A stretch of 48,730 bases of DNA from a virus, in the IMG/VR virus record IMGVR_UViG_3300005935_000024, positions 1 to 48,730 of that record. The stretch is one strand, 5' to 3'. Shown here piece after piece: positions 11,683-42,255 of the stretch (the stretch's first letter is position 1; the number at the start of each line of letters is the position of its first letter). The position numbers and the translations under genes were made by a program. Below the pieces are notes generated by a model. That model was not told the DNA's origin and ran no database searches. It saw nothing but the letters and a program-made list of their open reading frames with translations.

Positions 11683-14600
11683 TTATTTTACTTTCAATCT
11701 CGATTCACCCGGTTCTTTTGTAATCAATTCCGTTGGAGACGTAATGGTTACTTCAACTGGATTCTCGGAATTTGGTGTAGTGTCTATTGTTTGCAAACAC
11801 CCTTCATAATACAATCTTCGTATAGATGTGGAATATTCAATGGTATGATATCTAGCTCTATATAATGAAGATGAATAATGATTGTCAACCGATTGGCTGG
11901 CCTCTGTGGTGTAAAAATATTCTCTGATGAAATTATGGTTACTCATTCTAGATTGGCTCACGAATGGTTGCAAACCCTCAGAGAATACAAATTCTGGTCC
12001 ACCCACTTCAACTGAAGCTGTAGCGTATGTGTTACCCCAATAACTTGACCCAGTCAAATTGTATAAAGTCGGGCGCCTGAATATGTCAGAGCCAAACGAA
12101 GAAGAATGTTCAGAATCATATCCAATGACACCTTCCCAATATGGGAATGTTGCACTCATTGATACTTGGGCAACACCATTGTCGGAATCGGTCACATTGA
12201 TTTCTCCACTATAATATTCATTATCCCAATTGACGTCCCTATTAATTACAACTTTTGATCTTTCGAATATGTTGGATTCTATTACCAACCCAACTGTGGG
12301 GGCCGATCTACCGGGGATCAATTTCCTGATCTGATCATACAATGAATTGTCATAGTATTTCAGTAGACGAACATAATCCCAAAAATTATTTGGATTATTA
12401 TATTTCTGCCAGTATGTTGAAGCTATATGGTTCAAATCTTTATACATATCCTTGTCCCTATCTCTTGGGTCTCCTATGTATTTATTGAAATCCAAATCCG
12501 CTACCGACAATATAATATCTTCATTGATAACATCTGTTGGTGCAAAATAAATTCCAACTTTATTTGAATCCACTGGGGCCAGATCGTATGCACTTTCTTC
12601 TTTTCTGAGCTTAGGGCTCAAAGTTATGTTGCCATTATTATCTGGAGTGATCGTATTGGATTCGATCCTAACCTTACTTGACATTCTTCTGGTTGGGCTA
12701 ACATTTGGAACAAATGCCCTTTGTGTATCTTCCACGCTCGAATAATTAATTTCACTTGCAAAATTTACGGCCGTCCCCGCTTGTACATAAGATTGGTTCG
12801 CGCTGGTGTCACGAATTGTTGGAGTTGTGTTCAAATTTGTATTATCGTCAAATGAATATCTCAACACCAAATCGGTATATGATGCAGAAGCGTGATTTCC
12901 ATTATAAGCCTTTGGTGCCGTCACATGATTATCAAACGCACTTTCAAGTAACGGGCTATTCCAATATCTGAATTCCATCATAGAACCACTAAATTGTGAA
13001 CCAAATGGATTGCCGGATTCCCCCCCTATGTACATTGTTTCACTGCCAGTAAATGCCGAGTTATGTGAAGATTCATCTGCATTTAATGACCCAGTAATTA
13101 TTGTCGATGTGTACGATTCAACATAAATTTTATCAGTGGATTCATTATATTTTTTTACAAATAATTCATATTTTATATCTTGATTTGATGCATCCGAATT
13201 TAAAGCTATTACTGGTTTTACAATAACGCCGGATGATAGGCCGGACGTGGCTTTATTTAAATCGAATGATTTTGGTTGTCTCTTAGGCCAGCCAGTTACA
13301 CCCAATAATTTATTTGTATTGTCATTTTTTGATGCATATTTTAAAATTATATCTTCACCGGAATCAGATTGCACAGTAATTTCTCCAGTATTTGGGAAAT
13401 TCGAAGATTGGGACAATTGGATGTTCTCGGCCAAATAATCAACTGACGAACCAGAAATGGTTGTCGCGATGGCTGGGACCAATTGTCGTTTCAACATCAC
13501 CGAATAGAATTCACCATCATACACTGGAACCTGTGATGAACTAACTTGGTTATATCCAGCATATCCATTTAATGCAAAAACAACCGAACCATAATTATCA
13601 GTTGAACCATTGTCCTTCAAATAAATCCCCCAGTTATTTCCAGCATGTAATAACGATTGGTTTGACCCAGTGGAAGTTTTAAATCTAAATTCAACTGTAT
13701 CGGGTTTTCTACCACTATTTGTATCATCTGCTCATGTCGTTTGAACATACTGTGCTCCAGAAAAATCAATGGCTTTAGTAAATTTTTGTGTTAAATCATA
13801 TGAAGGGGCAGTTCCTGGTATATCCGGTCCCCCGAATTCTTTAACTTTTAATATGGTTGAAGGGATGCCATAGCAGTTTATTAAACCACGAATGGACCTT
13901 TCAGTGCCTTTTGTTTTTAAGAAATACGGCATATTGTTAATGATACGATTCCATATTTCTTTAGAAATGTCGCCCTCGGCTACAGTGGAATACGTTTCCC
14001 AATTGGAACCGGTTTCATACAATCCGAGTTTGTATTTTGGTAGGTCAACTAATGATTTGCCATTATTCATTTCCCAGCCCATAGATTTGGCTACATCGTA
14101 AATCAAATCTTTGGATATTCCCTCATCAAGCTTATCCCTGCGATCGTGAATGCTTGGAATATTTTTAATATATAGCCAAACGTTGTCAAAAAAGTGCCCT
14201 GTCATATCGACAAAATCTGTATAAGTGGAATTATCAGGATTGTTGGATATGTGCAATGGGGTCAGATTTATCAATCTATTTCCATTTCCATTGTCATAAG
14301 ATGACGCCGATATTATTTGATTGTTATACCAAGTTACGGCTTTTGAAGATGTAACTGGGGCCAGTGAATATGGTTTTGTACTGTTATCTTTGGGCCAAGA
14401 ATTATCATGATAAATATCCAGAGAATTCGATGCATAAGATGAGCTATTATAATACATATAATATTCAAATCCATCAAACTCATTTTGAAGCTTATATACA
14501 GTTTTTTGATAATCACGGATTTGATTAGTTAAACTACTTGTAGCTGGAGTGTTATTTGCGGTCAGAACGGCCATGGCCGCATTGGCCGTTTCAATATCCG

Positions 14601-17019
14601 AAAGTTTTGTTTTAAAATTTTGTATTCTTCTCTCGGCCGATCCAAAATGGATAAAATTTGCAAATTTGAAATAATCGACATTCAAGCTTACACTTGTGGA
14701 ACTCGCACTGACAATCATATTTTCCAACGCATCAGAAACTGTTTCGTCGGAAGTTACCAATGTGTCCCTATTGACAAATGAAGTTTCACCCCCGTTTTGT
14801 GGGGAATCCTCAAAGTCCACATTTGGTTGTCTAAGTACAGTGGCATCAATTTTATCTTCGACAAATGGAATCAATGAAACGATGTCTTTGTGGCTGGGGG
14901 CCATTTCTTTAACTACATAACATAAATCACCCTTTTCAATGATGTCTGAAAGGGGCTCGTATAATTTATAAATGATGGAATTGGGATAATCCTTAATAGT
15001 TTCAGCATCTTTTTCATAATTCACTGTAAGTGCTAGATTATTGTCCCCAAAATTCAATAGAGTGTTTAAGTTTTTATCGTCACCGGTTTTGTATGTGACA
15101 TACCAATCTGTAGTTGGGGTGAAATTTAACCCCCCACCAATATGTCCCTTTTCAATGGCCTGTGCGTCCCATGTGTCCTTAACTCAGGCGGAGTTGGAAT
15201 TGAGAAAACTATCAATTTCACTGACAAAATCACTATAAATGGGAGTAATAATTTCCGAGTCTGTAAATATATATTCAACGCGAAGATCGGATACCAATGT
15301 GGTTCTCTCACTTCCAGGGTTGGAATATAATGACAATCTCATAGTGCCATCCAAATCCATATTAGATGGAATAGTGGCAATATATTCAATATCTTTTCAT
15401 ACATTTTTGGCATTTGTAATGTTGTTCACATCGTTCATAGAAACATACGCAGTGGATTCTCTTTTTACCCACACGCATTTTGACATAACAATTTCAAAAG
15501 TTTGGGGGTTACTTAACTGAATTCCATCTTCGGTTATTTCCAACCATTCCCAAATGCCATCTTCAGAAACAGTGCCGGCTTGTGAAGCTGGATTTGAAGT
15601 GTCAAATCCATTTGGAGGAGTCGTTGGAGCTCCTGGGTCACCAACATATTTTCAATAATAAATGATATTGAGCTTCGGATCAACATCGGCCTCATAATTA
15701 TTTTTATCCAACCAAATTGTATTATCACCATCTATCATATTGTACCCATCGGCCGGTCCGTTTGTTCAACTCCACTGCCCCTGTGGAGAAAGTGTTGGAA
15801 TTTGGGTGTTTGATATTTCCCTATCAAATCCAGTGGGCACATTAATGGGCATGTCTTCTAATGGGGTATCATATTGAAATGCGACCCCGATTCCACTATC
15901 GTCAATATTTGATTTTTGTTTAAATGATACCTTGATTTTATCGTTAAGACTCACACCAGCAGATGCTGGCGTTTTAAGATAAACGTATAGTGCTAATGTC
16001 CTATCACCAACTCCAAATTGGTCATTTTGATTAATAAATTTTAATGCCCTTGACCCCCCAAATCCTTCATCTTCAACAATTTTGGCAAAATATCCGGCAA
16101 ATAGATTATCATTCCATCCCGTCATCCCATATGAAACAATTTCATTATTGGCACCAACTACGCGAGTGGCGTCGGAATGTAACGATTGATCCCATCTGGT
16201 TTCGTCAGAGGGGCCCCAAGATTGCCCATTATCCAAAAGGTAGGGATTCACATCATTGAACCTGAACGAATCTATGGTTTGACGTTCCACGGTTTCACCG
16301 ATTATATACATGTTCTTAACGGTCAATATTCCACCAATCATCAAATCTGTAAATCCACTGTCATTGCTGGATTGATTGAAAGTAATATAAGGTATGGTTG
16401 GGTTATCAAAAGTTAAAAATCCACTACCATCTTCCTTTAATGAAATATACGTTTCCTCATCAGTGTATAATTCCGCGAATTCGGTCTTATATTTTGATAA
16501 ATTGATATCAAGAGGCATTAATCTAATTTCAGTTTTATCAGAAGATATGGATTGAATGTAATATTTTAGCTCTTTGATTTCCAATTCTTCCACAAATTGG
16601 GTGTCACCTTCATTGCCAATATAAATTTTTCCATTGTCACTTACCCAATAAGGTTGTTCTGATCTTCCAGTGATCCAAGGTGCTCCAGTATAAATGTCAC
16701 CATTCCCCCCAACCAATACCGAACTGTCATATCCAGCAGCATATCTGAAGAAATTATATTCAACCTTAAATTCACCAGAAAGAAATCCCATGCGCCGTAA
16801 ATCGTCACCCGGTTTAATTGTAATTCCATTATTGGTTGAAAAATCGGAAATCTTGCCCGATTTGATCAAATTGTCGGACATATCATATACGTGAAGCTCA
16901 ATATGGTCTTTATTAGCAAGTGTGCCAAATATAGGGGAATCCCACCAATGGGTTTCACCTACTACATATTCTCCGGCTTTTAAGATTTTTAAATCTTTTT
17001 CTGTTAAACGATTTGACAT
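11683..17019 (-). CDS. Giant virion protein with LamG-like domain (five TGA-Trp)
   Basis: A single 1,778-residue gene that is cut into pieces if TGA is a stop. TGA codons encode Trp at residues 418, 456, 541, 612 and 1096 (15766-15768, 15652-15654, 15397-15399, 15184-15186, 13732-13734), and about 30 other Trp are TGG. The frame is continuous from ATG 17019 (AAGGAATTATA-ATG) to TAA 11683. Around residues 1330-1420 a concanavalin/laminin-G-like domain is suggested (ETMYIGGESGNPFGSQ, FSGSMMEFRYWNSPLLES, LVLRYSFDDNTN). A later NFWDYVRLLKYYDNSLYDQ segment resembles tail-associated proteins. Likely a host-recognition or baseplate periphery component; exact homology is unresolved. Confidence 0.8.
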
Positions 17020-17324: not shown

Positions 17325-17566
17325 TATATTTTCTCTATTTCATCAAATCTAAACGCGTTGGGCGTTTTGTCGCCAATTTGAACATACCAAGTATCACCCT
17401 TAATCATGCTATCCTTAGCAATCGTCCAAACATCTTCTCCTGCTCATCGGATAATCGCCCCCTTTTCACCAGATGTAAGTTTCACTGTCTGCCCCCTTTT
17501 AAATCGTTTTCGATTAACCACGACCGAGCGTTTCAATTCTGTTACTAAATTTGTTAATTTAATCAT
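17324..17566 (-). CDS. Small beta-barrel-like virion-cluster protein (TGA-Trp)
   Basis: An 80-residue protein, MIKLTNLVTELKRSVVVNRKR...GAIIRW-AGEDVWTIAKDSMIKGDTWYVQIGDK. Residue 41 is TGA (17444-17446). It overlaps both neighbours by TAATG. The GQTVKL...KGAIIRW...WYVQIGD pattern is like a small SH3/OB-type barrel (inference). It is missed entirely with the standard code because of the mid-gene TGA. Confidence 0.65.
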
Positions 17567-18636
17567 TATCTACTCACCTTAAAACTTCAATTTTCATCAA
17601 AGTATTGTTCTGTTCCATTATTGACTACTTTAATTATCACTCTGTAATATCGTTCGGGTTGTAATCCATCCATCCACAAGTTGAAGTAGTTACCTGTGCT
17701 ATCACAACTCACTTTGGAATAATTATCAAATGGGATAATAACTTCCTCGGTATATGAATCTCTAATGGAATAATATGTGCTGCCGCTTGGGAGTGTTTTA
17801 ACTACAGTTTGATCGGTTGATGATGTTGCCCACGTTCTTACTGGGAACCTCTCCCTACCAACCAACCTAATTTTAGTTTTACCAGTTTGTTTATATTCCG
17901 ATCTAAAACTCTTTAGATAAACCTTTGAATCTTCCAGCTCACCAGTTGTAAGCTGTGATAACGAGCCCGTCGACCAACTTGAATCGTCCCATACAACTTC
18001 AAGTTTTGGTGGGTATATGGTGTTAGTGTCTCTGGAAAAATACTTGAAATTTCCAAGTGAAATTGTACTAGTCTCATCTGCAGTGGCCCGCTTTACCATA
18101 ACTCCGGCATTTGGGATTGTACTGTCCAACCACTTTTCAACAATATCAGTTACTTCCATTCTTAAATCCGTAGTTTCCAGACTAAAACTCTGTGAGGCCT
18201 CATAACCACTACCGCTATACCACGTACCACCACTTGTTAAGGAGCCACTTATCCAGGTACTGGCGTTCGTTAAACCGTCAGTATAGGCTCAACTTGCACC
18301 TTCAGTTGTTATTGGTTCATCGCCGAGTGATCCCTGACCCATTGACCAACTTTGGCTGATTGGGTAACCCTTTAATGATTGTTCCACTTGTAATGCGGTT
18401 GGGTTCGAATCGAATAAATTCAAGTAAAATTTTCTATTTGAAGTTATTGTTCCATCGACTATTGACCCAGAAATATCGGTTAAATCAAACTGAATGATTG
18501 GTCTGGAAAGTTCTATTACTGTTCCGCTTGGATTCATATCTTTGCGTATTTCCAATACACTATCAAGTCCAGTATTCATACTAGCCGACGCTTCATATAG
18601 TGTCGTATCTTTTGTGCAAAATGTGAAAAAATGCAT
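17566..18636 (-). CDS. DNRLRE-like virion protein (two TGA-Trp)
   Basis: A 356-residue protein starting at ATG 18636 after GAGGAG (an in-frame ATG 15 bp upstream contains that ribosome site and is rejected). TGA at 18289-18291 (residue 116, EGAS-W-AYTDG) and 17587-17589 (residue 350, DEN-W-SFKVSR) are read as Trp; the frame then ends at a TAATG overlap with the next gene. DTTLYEASASMNTGLDSVLEIRKD and LSRPIIQFDLTDISG resemble DNRLRE-type beta domains of surface and virion proteins. Likely a tail-surface or adhesion component; family call tentative. Confidence 0.7.
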
Positions 18637-18637
18637 T

Positions 18638-18850
18638 CTAATTCTCCTCATTCAATTCTATAAATTCACAATTCAAATAATTCACGATTTCCTGTTTTCT
18701 TTGCTTATCACGGTTGGCTTGATATTTGTGATGTTTTTCATAATATTCTATTACCACATTTTTTTCTTTACTATAACCATCAACAAAATATCCCAATACT
18801 TTAAATTCCCCACCGTTTTCAGCGTGTTCTGGACAATTTCTGTAATACAT
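18638..18850 (-). CDS. Vsr-like homing endonuclease core, free-standing
   Basis: A 70-residue protein: NGGEFKVLGYFVDGYSKEKNVVIEYYEKHH...DKQRKQEIVNYLNCEFIEL. It is clearly related to the C-terminal nuclease part of the plus-strand endonuclease at 3089-3637, but lacks the N-terminal finger and linker. VDGY and IEYYEKHH supply the acidic residues expected of the nuclease core. It sits seamlessly between the gp6-like gene (1 bp gap) and the DNRLRE-like gene, as mobile endonuclease genes often do in T4-like phages. It may be a minimal active enzyme or a remnant. Confidence 0.6.
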   Translation of the reverse strand: MYYRNCPEHAENGGEFKVLGYFVDGYSKEKNVVIEYYEKHHKYQANRDKQRKQEIVNYLNCEFIELNEEN

Positions 18851-18851
18851 A

Positions 18852-20822
18852 TTAAATGCTCCCTACTACCCGACCAAGTATATCAGTGCTCGGGAATTTC
18901 AATTCAAAAATACTTGGGTCTAATGATGGATATACTACACCATTTTTTGTAGCCGAATCAATATCATAAATATTGCCAGAATAATTATTATCTTTTGACC
19001 ACTTATTTGTTATGACTATTGGAGACCCCTTGGCGTCATCTGGAGGAACAATTGAGGCCACTCCTTCTACCAATGACAATTTATATACTATGTCACCGAC
19101 CACAATTGGTTGATTTATTTGTCATTTGTCAACATTAAAATATTCCTTAATAACTTCAATACAATTTAGAAGTACTTCGTTCTTGTTATAATTTCTCTTG
19201 GTTATGATTGAAAATTGTACCCCTACATTGATCACTCACGCGTCTTTAATATTAACGGCATCAGTGACCATTCTGTATTGACCCAAATATGTTTTTAAAT
19301 TCTGTTTAACCGCCGCATTTAAATTGGCAAATCGTTTGGATGAATCATACCCCAAAACATACATATTTAATGCCAGTGGATTTGGGATTCTAGCTGGAAT
19401 TCTGCCCATCAAACTCATTATACTATTCCCAACGTCACTATCCTGAATCACGGCGTCTTCAGTAGTGCCATTCTGATTTAATTGATCATCCTGAACAATA
19501 TATGCCTTAGAAATATTGCCATATTTTGCCGGTAAGGAATATGCTCTAACAATATAATCTTCTTTAGTAACCGCCCTTTGTTGTGCTTGAAAATATGCCA
19601 ATGCATTTTGTCTAATTTCTTCAATACTTTCACCACTTTTCCCGCCTGTAGCTGGTTCTGGATTGATAGCCGATACCGAATTTTTAGATTCTTGAACCAA
19701 TGCTGAATCTAGATTTTCATCATCTATGGTGTAAGTAACCGCTGATATATTGTTAATATCATTGGCCACAACATTGTCATCGACTCCTCCACCGTGTGCA
19801 TATTTAACAGTAAGTGTCGTATTTGATGGTGACAATCCATAAGTTCTAGTTGATAGAAAATTGGATGGATCAAATGCCGTGTCTAAAAAACTAGGACTTC
19901 CAGGTAATGACGACCCCACATTTCCTGGATTCGGGATAATTTCTTCATCTGGATTATCCGATACCCCAGCTCCAAACCTAATTTCAGTTTTGTTATCGGC
20001 CCTAATAAATGTGGTATATCGTCTTGGAGTTTTTATTAATTTTAGTAAGTATGGGGCGTCATCACTATATTGTGATAATTCGGGGTCGTTCGCAGAATCG
20101 TTTTCCATTTCTTCAAATAGAGTATCTTGTGCCAAAAACGGAACCCCTTTCCATTCATTACCATCACTATCAGTCATGTTGATAATTTCGGTCACATTTA
20201 TATTTGAAAGAGATACTCTTGAATATTTCTCGGCGGCGTTGAATGTAAAATAATCCGTGGATACTGTTCCACTATAAATATTTTGTGTTTTTTTCAATAA
20301 ATATTTGGATGGTAAATTGGTGGCATTGTCAGTTTCAATTACAGATATGGCCATTGGGTCATAGGAACTGGAAAATTTGAAGTTGATATCACCTCCTGCC
20401 CTAAATGTAACCCCATTTTGGGATTTCATCTCAAGTCCATTTAATGTCAATGCATATCTCATATCCGGCCTCACATTGGATTGGTCGCCAATAGCGGGCA
20501 CAGTTTGAAATACGTTAATTTTAGTTGTTGCTGGTGCAGTAATTTTTGGTTTGTATCCCAATGATTGGACGGCTTCATATACCACTCGTTTTTCTTCAGC
20601 GTATGCCAATAATGATTCCTTAAATTGTGCGTCAATGTAATATGACAATACATCGCCTACATAGGACACCAATTCGATGAACATCATCCCAGGATCAGTC
20701 TCATTAAAATCCGTAAACGTGCTGGGGAAGTATATTTTTGCGAACTCGATGAGATCATTTCTGAATGCACTGAAATCTTTCGAAAGGTACTTCACATCTT
20801 TTGATACGTCTTTTTTAGCCAT
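18852..20822 (-). CDS. 6: Baseplate wedge protein, T4 gp6-like (two TGA-Trp)
   Basis: 656 residues against 660 in T4 gp6. N-terminal VKYLSKDFSAFRNDLIEFAKIYFPSTFTDFNETDPGMMFIELVSYVGDVLSYYIDAQFKESLLAYAEEKRVVYEAVQSLGY is the diagnostic gp6/baseplate-J start. Later SGESIEEIRQNALAYFQAQQRAVTKEDYIVRAYSLPAKYGNI is the conserved J-like region. TGA at 19236-19238 (residue 529, KDA-W-VINVG) and 19122-19124 (residue 567, VDK-W-QINQP) join what a standard reading splits into two. It forms the inner baseplate ring with gp7 and gp53-type partners; gp25 is the neighbour upstream, separated by an inserted HNH gene. Confidence 0.9.
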
Positions 20823-25669: not shown

Positions 25670-26455
25670 CTATTTCTCCATTTCATCGAAAAATTTACTA
25701 AAAGTGGCCATTGGGTCAACCTTAGACGTAACCTTCTCAGGTTTTGCTTTGGGTTTAATCAATGAATCTTTTATATTATTTATCGCTTTTTTCTCTTGTT
25801 TAGTTTCCAGATTTACAACATTCATCCGAGTGTCGTATTCCATTCTAGTAGACATCCAATCGGCCCAATGAATGATAAACGGCAGATGATTCTTCATTTG
25901 CATGTCATCACTATATGTATTGAAATATGACTTGTTCAATTCCTTGAACATTCCATCGGCTAGTCTGATGCCGTACATTTCATTATCTGTAATTTTGATA
26001 TCGAATTGTTGCAATAAAAATAGAGACCTATCAGTAACATCCATAAAATTCAAATTTGAATTATATTCGTATCTGATGCCCCTTTTAATTTGCCAGTCGT
26101 TTGTAGCTGGAACATAGTAATCATTATCAATATCTCCAAGCTTCCCTAGATCGTGGTGCATAGCCGCAAAGATTCTCTCTTCGTCAGTGAAGTCCGTTGT
26201 ACCACCAATGTGCCTATACATTTTAGCCATCATCTCTGATACTTCAATTATATTCAAAACGTGTTTGAGATACCCACCCGGTACTGCTAAGTGAAAATGA
26301 TCTTTTCCACTAGCCGGTGCCAATAATAATCTGTCACCGAAATGCTCATACATCTTAATCAAATTATCACGACGTTCACCTTCAAAAGTGCTGTCAATGA
26401 TATCAATCAATTTTTCATAAGATTCTGTAATTTCTTCTGCTGTTAATTTAAACAT
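25670..26455 (-). CDS. HD-domain phosphohydrolase
   Basis: A 261-residue protein with the HD signature: an N-terminal His region (HFHLAVPGGYLKHVLNIIEV), then FAAMHHDLGKLGD with the HD pair, and a later WADWMSTRMEYD that supplies the last Asp. Such proteins hydrolyse nucleotides or cyclic nucleotides, and HD proteins of this kind occur in large T4-like phages. The C-terminal 60 residues are Lys-rich (KPKAKPEKVTSK). It is in the macrodomain/NAD operon, so a nucleotide or ADP-ribose-related substrate is possible but not shown. Confidence 0.8.
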   Translation of the reverse strand: MFKLTAEEITESYEKLIDIIDSTFEGERRDNLIKMYEHFGDRLLLAPASGKDHFHLAVPGGYLKHVLNIIEVSEMMAKMYRHIGGTTDFTDEERIFAAMHHDLGKLGDIDNDYYVPATNDWQIKRGIRYEYNSNLNFMDVTDRSLFLLQQFDIKITDNEMYGIRLADGMFKELNKSYFNTYSDDMQMKNHLPFIIHWADWMSTRMEYDTRMNVVNLETKQEKKAINNIKDSLIKPKAKPEKVTSKVDPMATFSKFFDEMEK

Positions 26456-26458
26456 AAC

Positions 26459-27019
26459 CTAACCTTCCTGTGATACTTTCCAAGTACCATTTTTAAAATT
26501 CTTTTCTACGCGATCCCATTCATCACCCGATAATATCCAATCTGGGTTTTTCCAATCATACACATAAATTGTTCTATTTGCAAACACCTCATCCAAAATA
26601 CCTTCTACAATATTCCAATCTCCCCCAGCAAGTCCACATCCAATACGTGGCATGCCCAATTGAATACTCTTGTATTCCTCATCTCCCTCTTCCCACATAT
26701 TTTCTTCTTTTTGTAGAAGCAATTCAATCTTTTCCATGACTGTGCGCACCGCGTCATAATCGACATCGAGCTTGTCCGTTGAATAGTTGAATTGAGTATA
26801 TGCGTTTATAATGACTTTTCCATGTTGATATGCTTCTGTGAATGTCCCCATTTTTGCGGGGTCGCCCCATAGGGTTTCTAGATCAGCCTTGTGAGCCTTT
26901 GGGAATTGGTGTCTGATTTGTTGTGCTATTCCGGCACCCATTGATAATTTACAGTTGCACCCATGTGCAATGTATTTAATATCAGATTGTAATAAATCGC
27001 CCTTACAATATTCTATCAT
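26459..27019 (-). CDS. Macrodomain protein (ADP-ribose-1''-phosphatase-like)
   Basis: A 186-residue macrodomain: MIEYCKGDLLQSDIKYIAHGCNCKLSMGAGIAQQIRHQFP, ending with PRIGCGLAGGDWNIVEGILDEVF. These are the ADP-ribose-binding loops; the HGCNxxxxMGxGIA form matches Poa1p-type Appr-1''-phosphatases and ADP-ribose glycohydrolases. In this phage it can be linked to KptA (46.0 kb) and the cREC domain (41.2 kb), whose products are ADP-ribose phosphates, and to the Nudix ADP-ribose hydrolase in the same operon. Alternative: removal of host or toxin ADP-ribosylation. All seven Trp are TGG. Confidence 0.88.
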   Translation of the reverse strand: MIEYCKGDLLQSDIKYIAHGCNCKLSMGAGIAQQIRHQFPKAHKADLETLWGDPAKMGTFTEAYQHGKVIINAYTQFNYSTDKLDVDYDAVRTVMEKIELLLQKEENMWEEGDEEYKSIQLGMPRIGCGLAGGDWNIVEGILDEVFANRTIYVYDWKNPDWILSGDEWDRVEKNFKNGTWKVSQEG

Positions 27020-27105
27020 ATAACCTCCATTTTTAATTGAAATATCATCGCATCTGAGCCCTTCTCATACGAGTTAGGAACCCAGAACGCTCGATAATAA
27101 TGTTG

Positions 27106-27486
27106 TGGAGCGATAGGGATTTGAACCCTAGTCCGCAATGTATTCACCAATCGGTCGTTACAAGTTTAGCATCCTTTTATGTTTGATGTCGGATTTCTCA
27201 AAAAGTTACAAAAAATATCCCGTCATCCTATTTCAGTTATCGTACTCCCCGAATTGATCTGGAACGCCGGTTCTGGATTTATTCGTCCCACATCGGTTGG
27301 ACAAATCTAATTAATGACGAATCGTTATCTTATTAGAATCGGATAGGATTCGGAAGTCCGCTTATTAAGCTGCGACTGCGTATTGTACTTGTGTGCCAAT
27401 TACTTGGTCTTTTGGCTTTTTAAAGTGTACCATCACTACTTGCACCAATTGTCAAAAATCATCCCGTCGAAACCAAATTTCGCCCC
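27106..27486 (-). ncRNA. ssrA: Transfer-messenger RNA (tmRNA)
   Basis: 381 nt. The 5' end GGGGCGA pairs with 3' TCGCTCC, including the G3-U70 pair that marks alanine tRNAs. The 5' side has TTTGGTTTCGACGGGAT, the hallmark tmRNA start; the 3' side has TAGGG-TTCAAAT-CCCTA, the T arm. The tag frame (27368-27397) is GTQVQYAVAA followed by TAA TAA, in the same place and with the same AAAAAGCC lead-in as the E. coli tag ANDENYALAA. No CCA is encoded. It rescues stalled ribosomes and tags products for proteolysis; a ClpP gene is also in the window. Confidence 0.93.
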
Positions 27487-27628
27487 GAGTTAATGGGTAG
27501 TGACCCCGCTAAATTGTTCACTACGTTGACCACAACCCCATTAATTGTAGCCACTATTGGTTTTCCTAAGTATGGTGAGTTTCCAATAGTAGGGCACCTT
27601 GAACGCCTCGGCTCTTAGGTGGTGCTCC
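27487..27628 (-). ncRNA. Structured RNA upstream of tmRNA, unknown class
   Basis: Between the small acidic gene and tmRNA the minus strand folds into three nested elements: GGAGCACC with GGTGCCC (27592-27628), an 8-bp stem ACTATTGG/CCAATAGT (27553-27590), and a TTAATGG/CCATTAA closing stem (27490-27544) that encloses a GTTG-TGGT-CAAC hairpin and a 7-bp GTAGTGA/TCACTAC stem, like a three-way junction. It is GC-richer than surrounding genes. It may be a separate ncRNA or a tmRNA leader. A 29-codon frame starting at 27631 lies across it but has no ribosome site. Confidence 0.5.
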
Positions 27629-27649
27629 ATCTGTATATATAAGTATTAC

Positions 27650-27826
27650 CTAGTCGTCTCAAACATCAGAATTATCTGACGTATTGCCGATATCATCTAA
27701 ATTGTATTCACTATATGGGTCTTCATATTGTGCAATCAGAATGCTATGAGCTTCACCAACTTTTTCCCAATCGGCATCTTCCAATGCTTCTTCAAGTAGA
27801 CTTAAAATAATGTCTAATTTGTCCAT
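27650..27826 (-). CDS. Small acidic protein (TGA-Trp near end)
   Basis: 58 residues: MDKLDIILSLLEEALEDADWEKVGEAHSILIAQYED...NSDVW-DD. It has a strong AGGAGG site. TGA at 27659-27661 (residue 56) is followed by GAC GAC TAG, so the last three residues depend on the code; with TGA as stop it would be 55 residues. It is strongly acidic, so could mimic DNA or bind basic partners (inference). The ribosome site lies in a hairpin (see separate entry). Confidence 0.6.
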
Positions 27827-27919: not shown

Positions 27920-29035
27920 TTAAGTCATCAAATGGGGTTTTGCTTCTACTTGACCAGCAGGTGTCACCCCCACAAAATCACAATTCGCTTGAAAGGTTTC
28001 AATGTCAACCGCACCACAATAACTCATGGCAGATTTCAGACCCTCAACCTGTTCCTTTAGAATTCTTTTGGCAGAACCCTTGAATAGTACACGCACACTA
28101 TTTCCTTCAATATGTGTTGATTCTCCACGATCCAATTTGGAAGATAATGACGCCGAACCCCTATATTCTTTATATAGTTGTTCATTGGGATATTTCCCTT
28201 CTCTTTTGAATGCACCGGGGGTCTCTTTTGTTCCTGCTAGGAGTGAACCAATCGTAACCGTACTTGCACCAGCACCAATTGCTTTAGCCATATCTCCGGG
28301 AGTAGTGATGCCACCATTTGATGAAATTGGAACATGTTTGCCTACACGTAATTTTTTGGGTTCTCCCATTTCACATAAGTATGACATTGCTTCTACGCAT
28401 TCCTGAACGGATGAAATCATTGGGATTCCAACGCCGGCTCTAATACGAGTTTCACATAATGAACCGCCGCCTACACCGACATGAATTCCATCTGCTCCCC
28501 ATTTAATTAAATCGTGGGTAGCTTCGGCGGTTGCAACCGTTCCAACAAATAAATCGGTTTTTGGATGGTTCTTTTTGAGCCATCCCAACATGCGTTTAAC
28601 CCCCACATGATGAGCATGTGCTACATCAATCATAAGAATATCCACCCCAGCTTCAATCAATTTTGCAGCGCGTTGTTTCTCTTCCTCTTTAATGCCGATA
28701 GCGGCACCAATTGGATATTTCAAATCAACATCATTGTGGACATCCCAGCCCTCATAAATTTTTACACTATTTAATGTTTTTTCGACCTCTTCAACCTGCT
28801 TATCAATAGACATAAATCTATGGATGAACCCAATACCACCATACTTATACATCAAAATTGCCATACGAGATTCACATACGGAATCCATCGCTGTGGCGAT
28901 AATCGGAATATCCAATACCCAATTGCTTGTAATGTGCGTTGACACGTCACATTCTGATCTAGATTCTACTTCCGAATATTTTGGGATAATCGTTACATCA
29001 TCGAAGGTTAGAGCCTTTTGCATCTTATAATCCAT
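27920..29035 (-). CDS. IMP dehydrogenase / GMP reductase family enzyme
   Basis: A 371-residue single-barrel enzyme without CBS domains. Motifs: [69 protein letters not shown] (catalytic Cys loop), [46 protein letters not shown] converts IMP to XMP with NAD+; GMPR does the reverse-type reaction with NADPH. The C-terminal [14 protein letters not shown]...EAKPH looks more IMPDH-like. It overlaps pncA by 11 bp and belongs to the NAD operon, so a link between purine and NAD+ use is natural. Which activity is not settled. Confidence 0.85.
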
Positions 29036-41652: not shown

Positions 41653-42255
41653 TTATTTGGATTTCCCACCGATGATTGAATCAATTATTCCATATTCTAA
41701 GGCTTCTTCAGCCGACATGAAAAAATTACGATCCGCGTCTTTTTCAACCTTATTTAGTCTTTGACCACAAAATTTGGCGAGCATCTGATTCATTTTCTTT
41801 TTGGTTTTCATAATTTCCTCAGCCGCGATAATCATATCTGAAGCTTGTCCGTATGTTCCACCGCTTGGTTGGTGAATCATGACTTTGGAATTTGGTAATG
41901 CAAACCGTTTACCCTTTTCTCCAGCCGCTAATAGGAAAGCTCCCATGCTATACGCTTGCCCAACAACAATTGTGGATACATCAGGCTTGATGAAATTCAT
42001 CGTATCCATAATGGCCATACCAGATGTAATAATTCCACCGGGGCTGTTTATATAGATGTTGATATCTTTTTCACTATCTTCTGATGTCAGAAAAAGCAAT
42101 TGAGCAATTACCAATGATGCAACATTGTCATCAATCGGTGTACTCATAAAAATAATTCGGTCTTTTAAGAGCCGACTGTAAATATCATAAGATCGTTCAT
42201 TTCTACCATTCTGCTCAACCACCATCGGGATAAGCTGATTTGTCTCGTTTCCCAT
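41653..42255 (-). CDS. clpP: ClpP-type serine protease subunit
   Basis: A 200-residue ClpP with the catalytic Ser in [16 protein letters not shown], His in MIHQPSGG and Asp in [25 protein letters not shown]. The usual ASSMG is AYSMG, but the Ser and Met remain. ClpP degrades proteins with a Clp ATPase; no ClpX/ClpA is seen here, so it would use the host's or replace host subunits. It could also degrade proteins tagged by the phage tmRNA, which ends VAA. Confidence 0.93.

Follow-up and report, generated by a model that had tools for sequence, protein, structure and literature searches.

The window, as we call the whole stretch of DNA analysed here (a linear virus record of 48.7 kb), carries a complete one-piece tmRNA gene, which very probably yields a working phage tmRNA that performs trans-translation, supplements host rescue and is inherited at its locus. 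Its allele is common only to phages that recode TGA, in which it occurs on two backbones; many relatives without recoding also hold a tmRNA at this locus, and marine non-recoding relatives have versions with far longer tags, whose first part is under purifying selection as a peptide. Since phage tmRNAs are already known (PMC4131195, PMC9004378, PMC7162821, PMC8928761), the window gene is one more member of an established class, found in 402 of 18,146 phage genomes (about 2.3%; PMC9004378) and represented in mycobacteriophage Wildcat by the most highly expressed lytic gene (PMC7474061). The elements of the gene are:

27105..27486, minus strand: one-piece tmRNA gene (ssrA), CCA not encoded (ARAGORN, Rfam RF00023; allele conserved in relatives L157 and G107)
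27480..27486, minus strand: GGGGCGA, 5' half of the acceptor stem (all seven positions pair with UCGCUCC, G3-U70 among them)
27107..27113, minus strand: UCGCUCC, 3' half of the acceptor stem, with the discriminator A at 27106 (direct stem check)
27405..27437, minus strand: likely pseudoknot 1, an AGUG-CACU stem whose loop UGGU pairs with a downstream ACCA (read from the sequence)
27398..27402, minus strand: element upstream of the resume codon, UAAUU, with A at -4 (UAACU at the equivalent place in L005 and G107)
27362..27397, minus strand: reading frame of the tag GTQVQYAVAA, opening with the resume codon GGC (27395-27397) and ending in UAA UAA (ARAGORN, sequence)
27355..27377, minus strand: likely helix 5, AGUC...GACU, which closes the frame of the tag and has the stop codons in its loop (read from the sequence)

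ARAGORN calls the gene at 27105-27486 with the tag GTQVQYAVAA and two stops, and Rfam RF00023 matches 27103-27486 over the full length of the model (1-374 of 374) with 110.1 bits (E 2.9e-42), against a gathering score of 47 bits. The complete tmRNA proposed by the first-pass annotation, which had also called for this covariance search, is thus borne out; its boundaries of 27106-27486 are correct as far as the discriminator base, and the strand, which it left unstated, is minus. Both programs give a one-piece gene order, not the permuted two-piece order of the Melnitz type. The gene is followed by ACAACA and encodes no CCA, so that the RNA relies on CCA addition. A blastn search of the phage collection gave no DNA-level match to it. 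The region upstream (27487-27660) holds no clear gene but several inverted repeats recognized by eye; immediately upstream of the tmRNA no promoter-like site rises above chance.

The tRNA-like domain is intact, with all seven acceptor pairs, the G3-U70 pair that had marked it as alanine-type, and a T stem paired 5/5. Acceptor positions 5-7 covary in relatives L005, G107 and L007, as seen by direct stem check, and both the acceptor and T stems of these three use pairs other than those of the window, while G3-U70 is invariant across the four alleles. The stem of pseudoknot 1 becomes GGAC-GUCC in L005 and AGAC-GUCU in G107, compensating changes identified by eye in these two relatives; likewise by eye, helix 5 has a counterpart in L005, CUGUAGC/GCUAUAG. 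The region of pseudoknots 2 to 4 aligns poorly to the Rfam model.

The tag is encoded as GGC ACA CAA GUA CAA UAC GCA GUC GCA GCU UAA UAA, and its first codon is GGC, as annotated, directly after UAAUU; the resume point of tmRNAs is determined by positions -6 to +1 (PMC3985003). The end in VAA supports the reading as a degradation tag. The tag is not, as had been claimed, unusual: ten residues is the commonest length of tmRNA tags (PMC11915505) and, together with the VAA end, makes it an ordinary one, and glycine also comes first in tags of other tmRNAs, such as GNQNLALAA and GENNYALAA. Between GTQVQYAVAA, GTNYAYPVAA and GTNYAIAA, the initial GT and final AA are kept and the middle varies.

From these features, the window RNA, once expressed, would receive alanine from the host enzyme, be loaded by host SmpB, and enter ribosomes stalled during infection, where translation would switch to the GGC resume codon; Ala-GTQVQYAVAA would be appended, translation would end at UAAUAA and the ribosome would be freed, leaving a partial protein marked for ClpXP-like AAA+ proteases. 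The tmRNA would most likely add to the rescue capacity of the host in infection. SmpB is not encoded in any of the 46 tmRNA-bearing records, all of them fragments and one of 165 kb, and could therefore sit elsewhere in the genome of the window phage. The accessory genes named in the first-pass annotation are all recovered by Pfam, ClpP as PF00574, PTH2 as PF01981 and peptide deformylase as PF01327; whether the phage ClpP might take part in degrading the tagged proteins is a guess. The genes that bear on the locus and on the arguments below are:

26459..27019, minus strand: macro-domain protein, downstream neighbour of the tmRNA (PF01661, 31.6 bits)
25670..26455, minus strand: second of the downstream genes, read as 'HD' from its sequence and without a Pfam match; syntenic marker
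27920..29035, minus strand: IMP dehydrogenase (IMPDH)-like gene, adjoining the tmRNA upstream (name read from the sequence)
41653..42255, minus strand: phage ClpP peptidase (PF00574, 271.8 bits)
18852..20822, minus strand: gp6-like baseplate gene with two in-frame TGA codons; basis of the backbone tree
11683..17019, minus strand: late structural gene with five in-frame TGA codons

The tmRNA sits between NAD genes on one side and the macro, HD and gp55 genes on the other, in agreement with its proposed place inside an NAD/gp55 operon; the names IMPDH, NAMPT, NADS, nicotinamidase, GroEL, HD and gp55 come from reading the sequences, not from a family search. This order is identical in L005, and in L158, L160, L281, L202, L203 and L274 the tmRNA is flanked by some of the same neighbours: the HD gene adjoins it in L160, L158, L276, L274 and L281, and the IMPDH-like gene in L158 and L160, the latter gene being 77% identical and syntenic in L276. 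Among further relatives (45 in one count, 79 when all other records with a gp6 relative are included), most of them contigs too short to judge, seven carry a tmRNA above the gathering score, and that of L170 passes once its cut 5' end is allowed for. Pattern searches find many more in relatives, usually between the IMPDH/PDF and HD/gp55 genes. Contigs of some relatives have no tmRNA, which is thus not essential to the family. Most likely the family inherited the tmRNA at this locus, and some lineages have replaced or exchanged the allele. Among isolates, the window gp6-like gene is closest to those of Microcystis phage Mel-JY01 (46%) and the Flavobacterium immuto phages (40%).

That the phage recodes TGA, as the first-pass annotation held, is confirmed by alignment of in-frame TGA codons in its late genes with TGG-Trp of relatives: this is the residue in 78 of 82 relatives at codon 567 of gp6, in 70 of 75 at codon 121 of p17566, and in 25 of 25 at codon 1096 of the frame 11683-17019; the remaining sites align with mixed residues, for example F or Y. 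The late structural genes that read TGA as Trp are 1-2612, 11683-17019, 17566-18651 and 18852-20822 of the window, with 14 in-frame TGA in late genes and none in the early genes tested. Of the first set of relatives, only L004 (near-identical to the window), L005 and L006 have in-frame TGA. A second, distant recoding lineage consists of G107 and the near-identical G088, G090 and G094, with 10 TGA to 10 TGG in late genes. A UCA suppressor tRNA is found neither in the window, nor in the near-identical contigs (all fragments), nor in G107; the G107 lineage does carry a tRNA-Trp(CCA) with C at position 9 (L275:15726-15798, minus strand), a change reported to promote UGA readthrough (PMC13092985).

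The tmRNA and the backbone give conflicting trees. That of the tmRNA unites the window, L005 and G107 in a single clade with support of 100/100, whereas that of gp6 puts the window and L005 among non-recoding phages near L007. For groups chosen after the trees were seen, the gp6 data reject a clade of window, L005 and G107 (p-AU 0.005), and the tmRNA data disfavour grouping the window with its gp6 neighbour L007 (p-AU 0.013). The exact place of G107 is unsure, owing to its long branch.

This pattern could well, though not with the better part of the probability, have arisen in a common host, in which two distant phages acquired or swapped the same allele independently of their genetic code. 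In favour of this, the tmRNAs of L005 and G107 are 63-67% identical despite about 40-43% identity in gp6, and the position at the locus is maintained; a host tmRNA of the window type was, however, not found in the one genome scanned. The competing account, compatible like the shared host with a working tmRNA and concerned with why it is kept, is tentatively that recoding itself retains it: while the phage suppresses UGA, ribosomes would run past the UGA stops of host messages as far as the 3' ends, where the tmRNA would clear them. Here the precedents are that nonsense suppressor tRNAs create tmRNA substrates (Ueda et al. 2002, as cited in PMC3985003) and that in recoded E. coli, ribosomes at unassigned stop codons are rescued mainly by tmRNA (PMC6207430). 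In keeping with it, all three recoding lineages checked (window, L005 and G107) share the tmRNA clade that gp6 rejects, and the stops of the window tag are UAA UAA, not UGA. However, the independent backbones number only two, a shared host accounts for the pattern equally well, and the tmRNA of recoded E. coli hinders viruses with the reassigned codon (PMC6207430). Many relatives that do not recode also have a tmRNA at this locus, and its presence can thus be explained without recoding. The proposal of the first-pass annotation that recoding explains the phage's own tmRNA is weakened to this extent; an allele common only to recoding phages across two backbones leaves it some probability. The family is in any case a natural comparison of tmRNA with and without TGA reassignment, in which the way recoding phages cope with readthrough becomes testable.

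It is very unlikely that the window RNA is instead a decoy, titrating SmpB and blocking host trans-translation like the truncated tmRNA of mycobacteriophage DS6A: a phage RNA that extends barely beyond the tRNA-like domain does inhibit tmRNA (PMC4131195; PMC11915505), but the window RNA has the full messenger part, intact tag frame, resume element and stops that DS6A lacks. Least credible of all is an origin from host ssrA, captured or broken, such as a remnant of integration; ssrA often serves as an integration site (PMC9004378), but this reading is contradicted by the completeness of the gene, its constant position throughout a large phage family and the covariation of its stems.

As a working tmRNA of a phage, the window RNA can be compared with several known ones. 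The tag of the Bxz1 tmRNA is longer than that of the window. Mycobacteriophages Bxz1 and Wildcat and Bacillus phage G also have a complete phage tmRNA, presumably using host SmpB (PMC4131195), but belong to other phage families, and the window tag is short and ALAA-like. Methylophage Melnitz and the pelagimyophages (PMC9004378) are, like the window phage, marine T4-like phages with a tmRNA, but theirs is a permuted two-piece molecule under a glutamine riboswitch, whereas that of the window is one-piece, with no riboswitch found in the window by Rfam scan. The Stenotrophomonas myophages Marzo, Mendera and Moby (PMC8928761) are large, with many tRNAs and one tmRNA, whose DNA similarity is confined to the 3' tRNA-like end of the tmRNA of a relative.

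Read from the resume codon, the tags of non-recoding relatives far exceed those given by ARAGORN, as in GDESLDGLVIDWHLAEYDVPSEPIGDYQPTYAYAA. A pattern based on the motif and a tag-blind one built on the tmRNA 5' end together yield 57 distinct tags of 34-43 residues with the consensus G[DE]xSLxGLxIDW[HQ][LMF]A...QPTYAYAA (records L155, L156, L158, L161, L188-L234 and L237-L271); the tag-blind pattern also yields tags that differ within the motif, IDWQFANSERMFDNYV and VVDWHLANSEMGF. The first part of these tags is under purifying selection at the peptide level, as follows from four results. Over codons 2-16, the entropy by codon position is 0.27/0.13/0.81; over codons 4-15, pN/pS is 0.19 (in the 36-residue tags, codons 17-26 give 0.73 and the last ten codons 0.58); equal-length stretches 5' and 3' of the tag do not have this periodicity; and the observed value is reached by 4 of 100,000 column permutations, a figure that serves as a guide and not a probability, since the sequences are related. 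The set was partly fetched by its motif; certain residues are thereby fixed, but not the choice among synonymous codons. Constraint by RNA structure alone is rejected because variation is concentrated at third codon positions; the near or complete lack of synonymous change at a few codons (GGG in 57/57, TCG in 53/57) suggests RNA pairing as well.

The last part of the long tags resembles ordinary degradation ends, so that a conserved peptide stands beside a degradation end, which suggests a function of the tag beyond that of a C-terminal degron. The nearest precedent for the first part would be a binding site for an adaptor or protease, by analogy with SspB recognition (PMC3985003) and with Mycoplasma, where Lon reads an extended tmRNA tag that is long and has several sites of contact (Ge and Karzai 2009, as cited in PMC11986505). 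The Mycoplasma tag is cellular and unrelated in sequence, and the window tag is short. Searches with the long tag gave no convincing match in isolates of the phage collection, and comparison of its peptide with solved structures and Pfam gave nothing meaningful; nor was a published maximum tag length found in the literature for comparison. These alleles look like a new tmRNA variant. Taken jointly, the data allow the speculative picture of a tmRNA that is a diversifying phage module, not a host copy, in an uncultivated T4-like family, where SLxGLxIDW[HQ]xA might steer trapped proteins to a protease, adaptor or other partner, and where the short-tag allele of the recoders might have passed from one backbone to another along with the altered code.

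Among the huge phages, for which tmRNA and SmpB are described (PMC7162821), the uncultured 484-kb LR756508.1 has a tmRNA 12 kb upstream of a gp6-like gene. Its tag (L182:1501-1947 = LR756508.1:92434-92880) reads as 36 residues, GVNNADYESAGFTAEDFAQMDGESLYHGSERKPAAV, unlike the other long tags. A second tmRNA-like match in this genome (LR756508.1:414804-414915, L184:1501-1612) spans only 112 nt with 58.2 bits; it consists of the tRNA-like domain and little else, and recalls the DS6A inhibitor RNA.

A search of genome contigs for hosts with the long-tag motif gave one match, on a phage-like 7.5-kb contig of MAG TMED198; this contig (L234, NHIV01000037.1) is binned into that MAG, bacterium TMED198. 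The MAG's own tmRNA has the tag ADYGYAAAA, and tags of its phylum include ADNYAYAA and ANNYAYAA, with the end YAYAA in common with the long tags; TMED198 is thus a weak lead to the host phylum of the long-tag phages.
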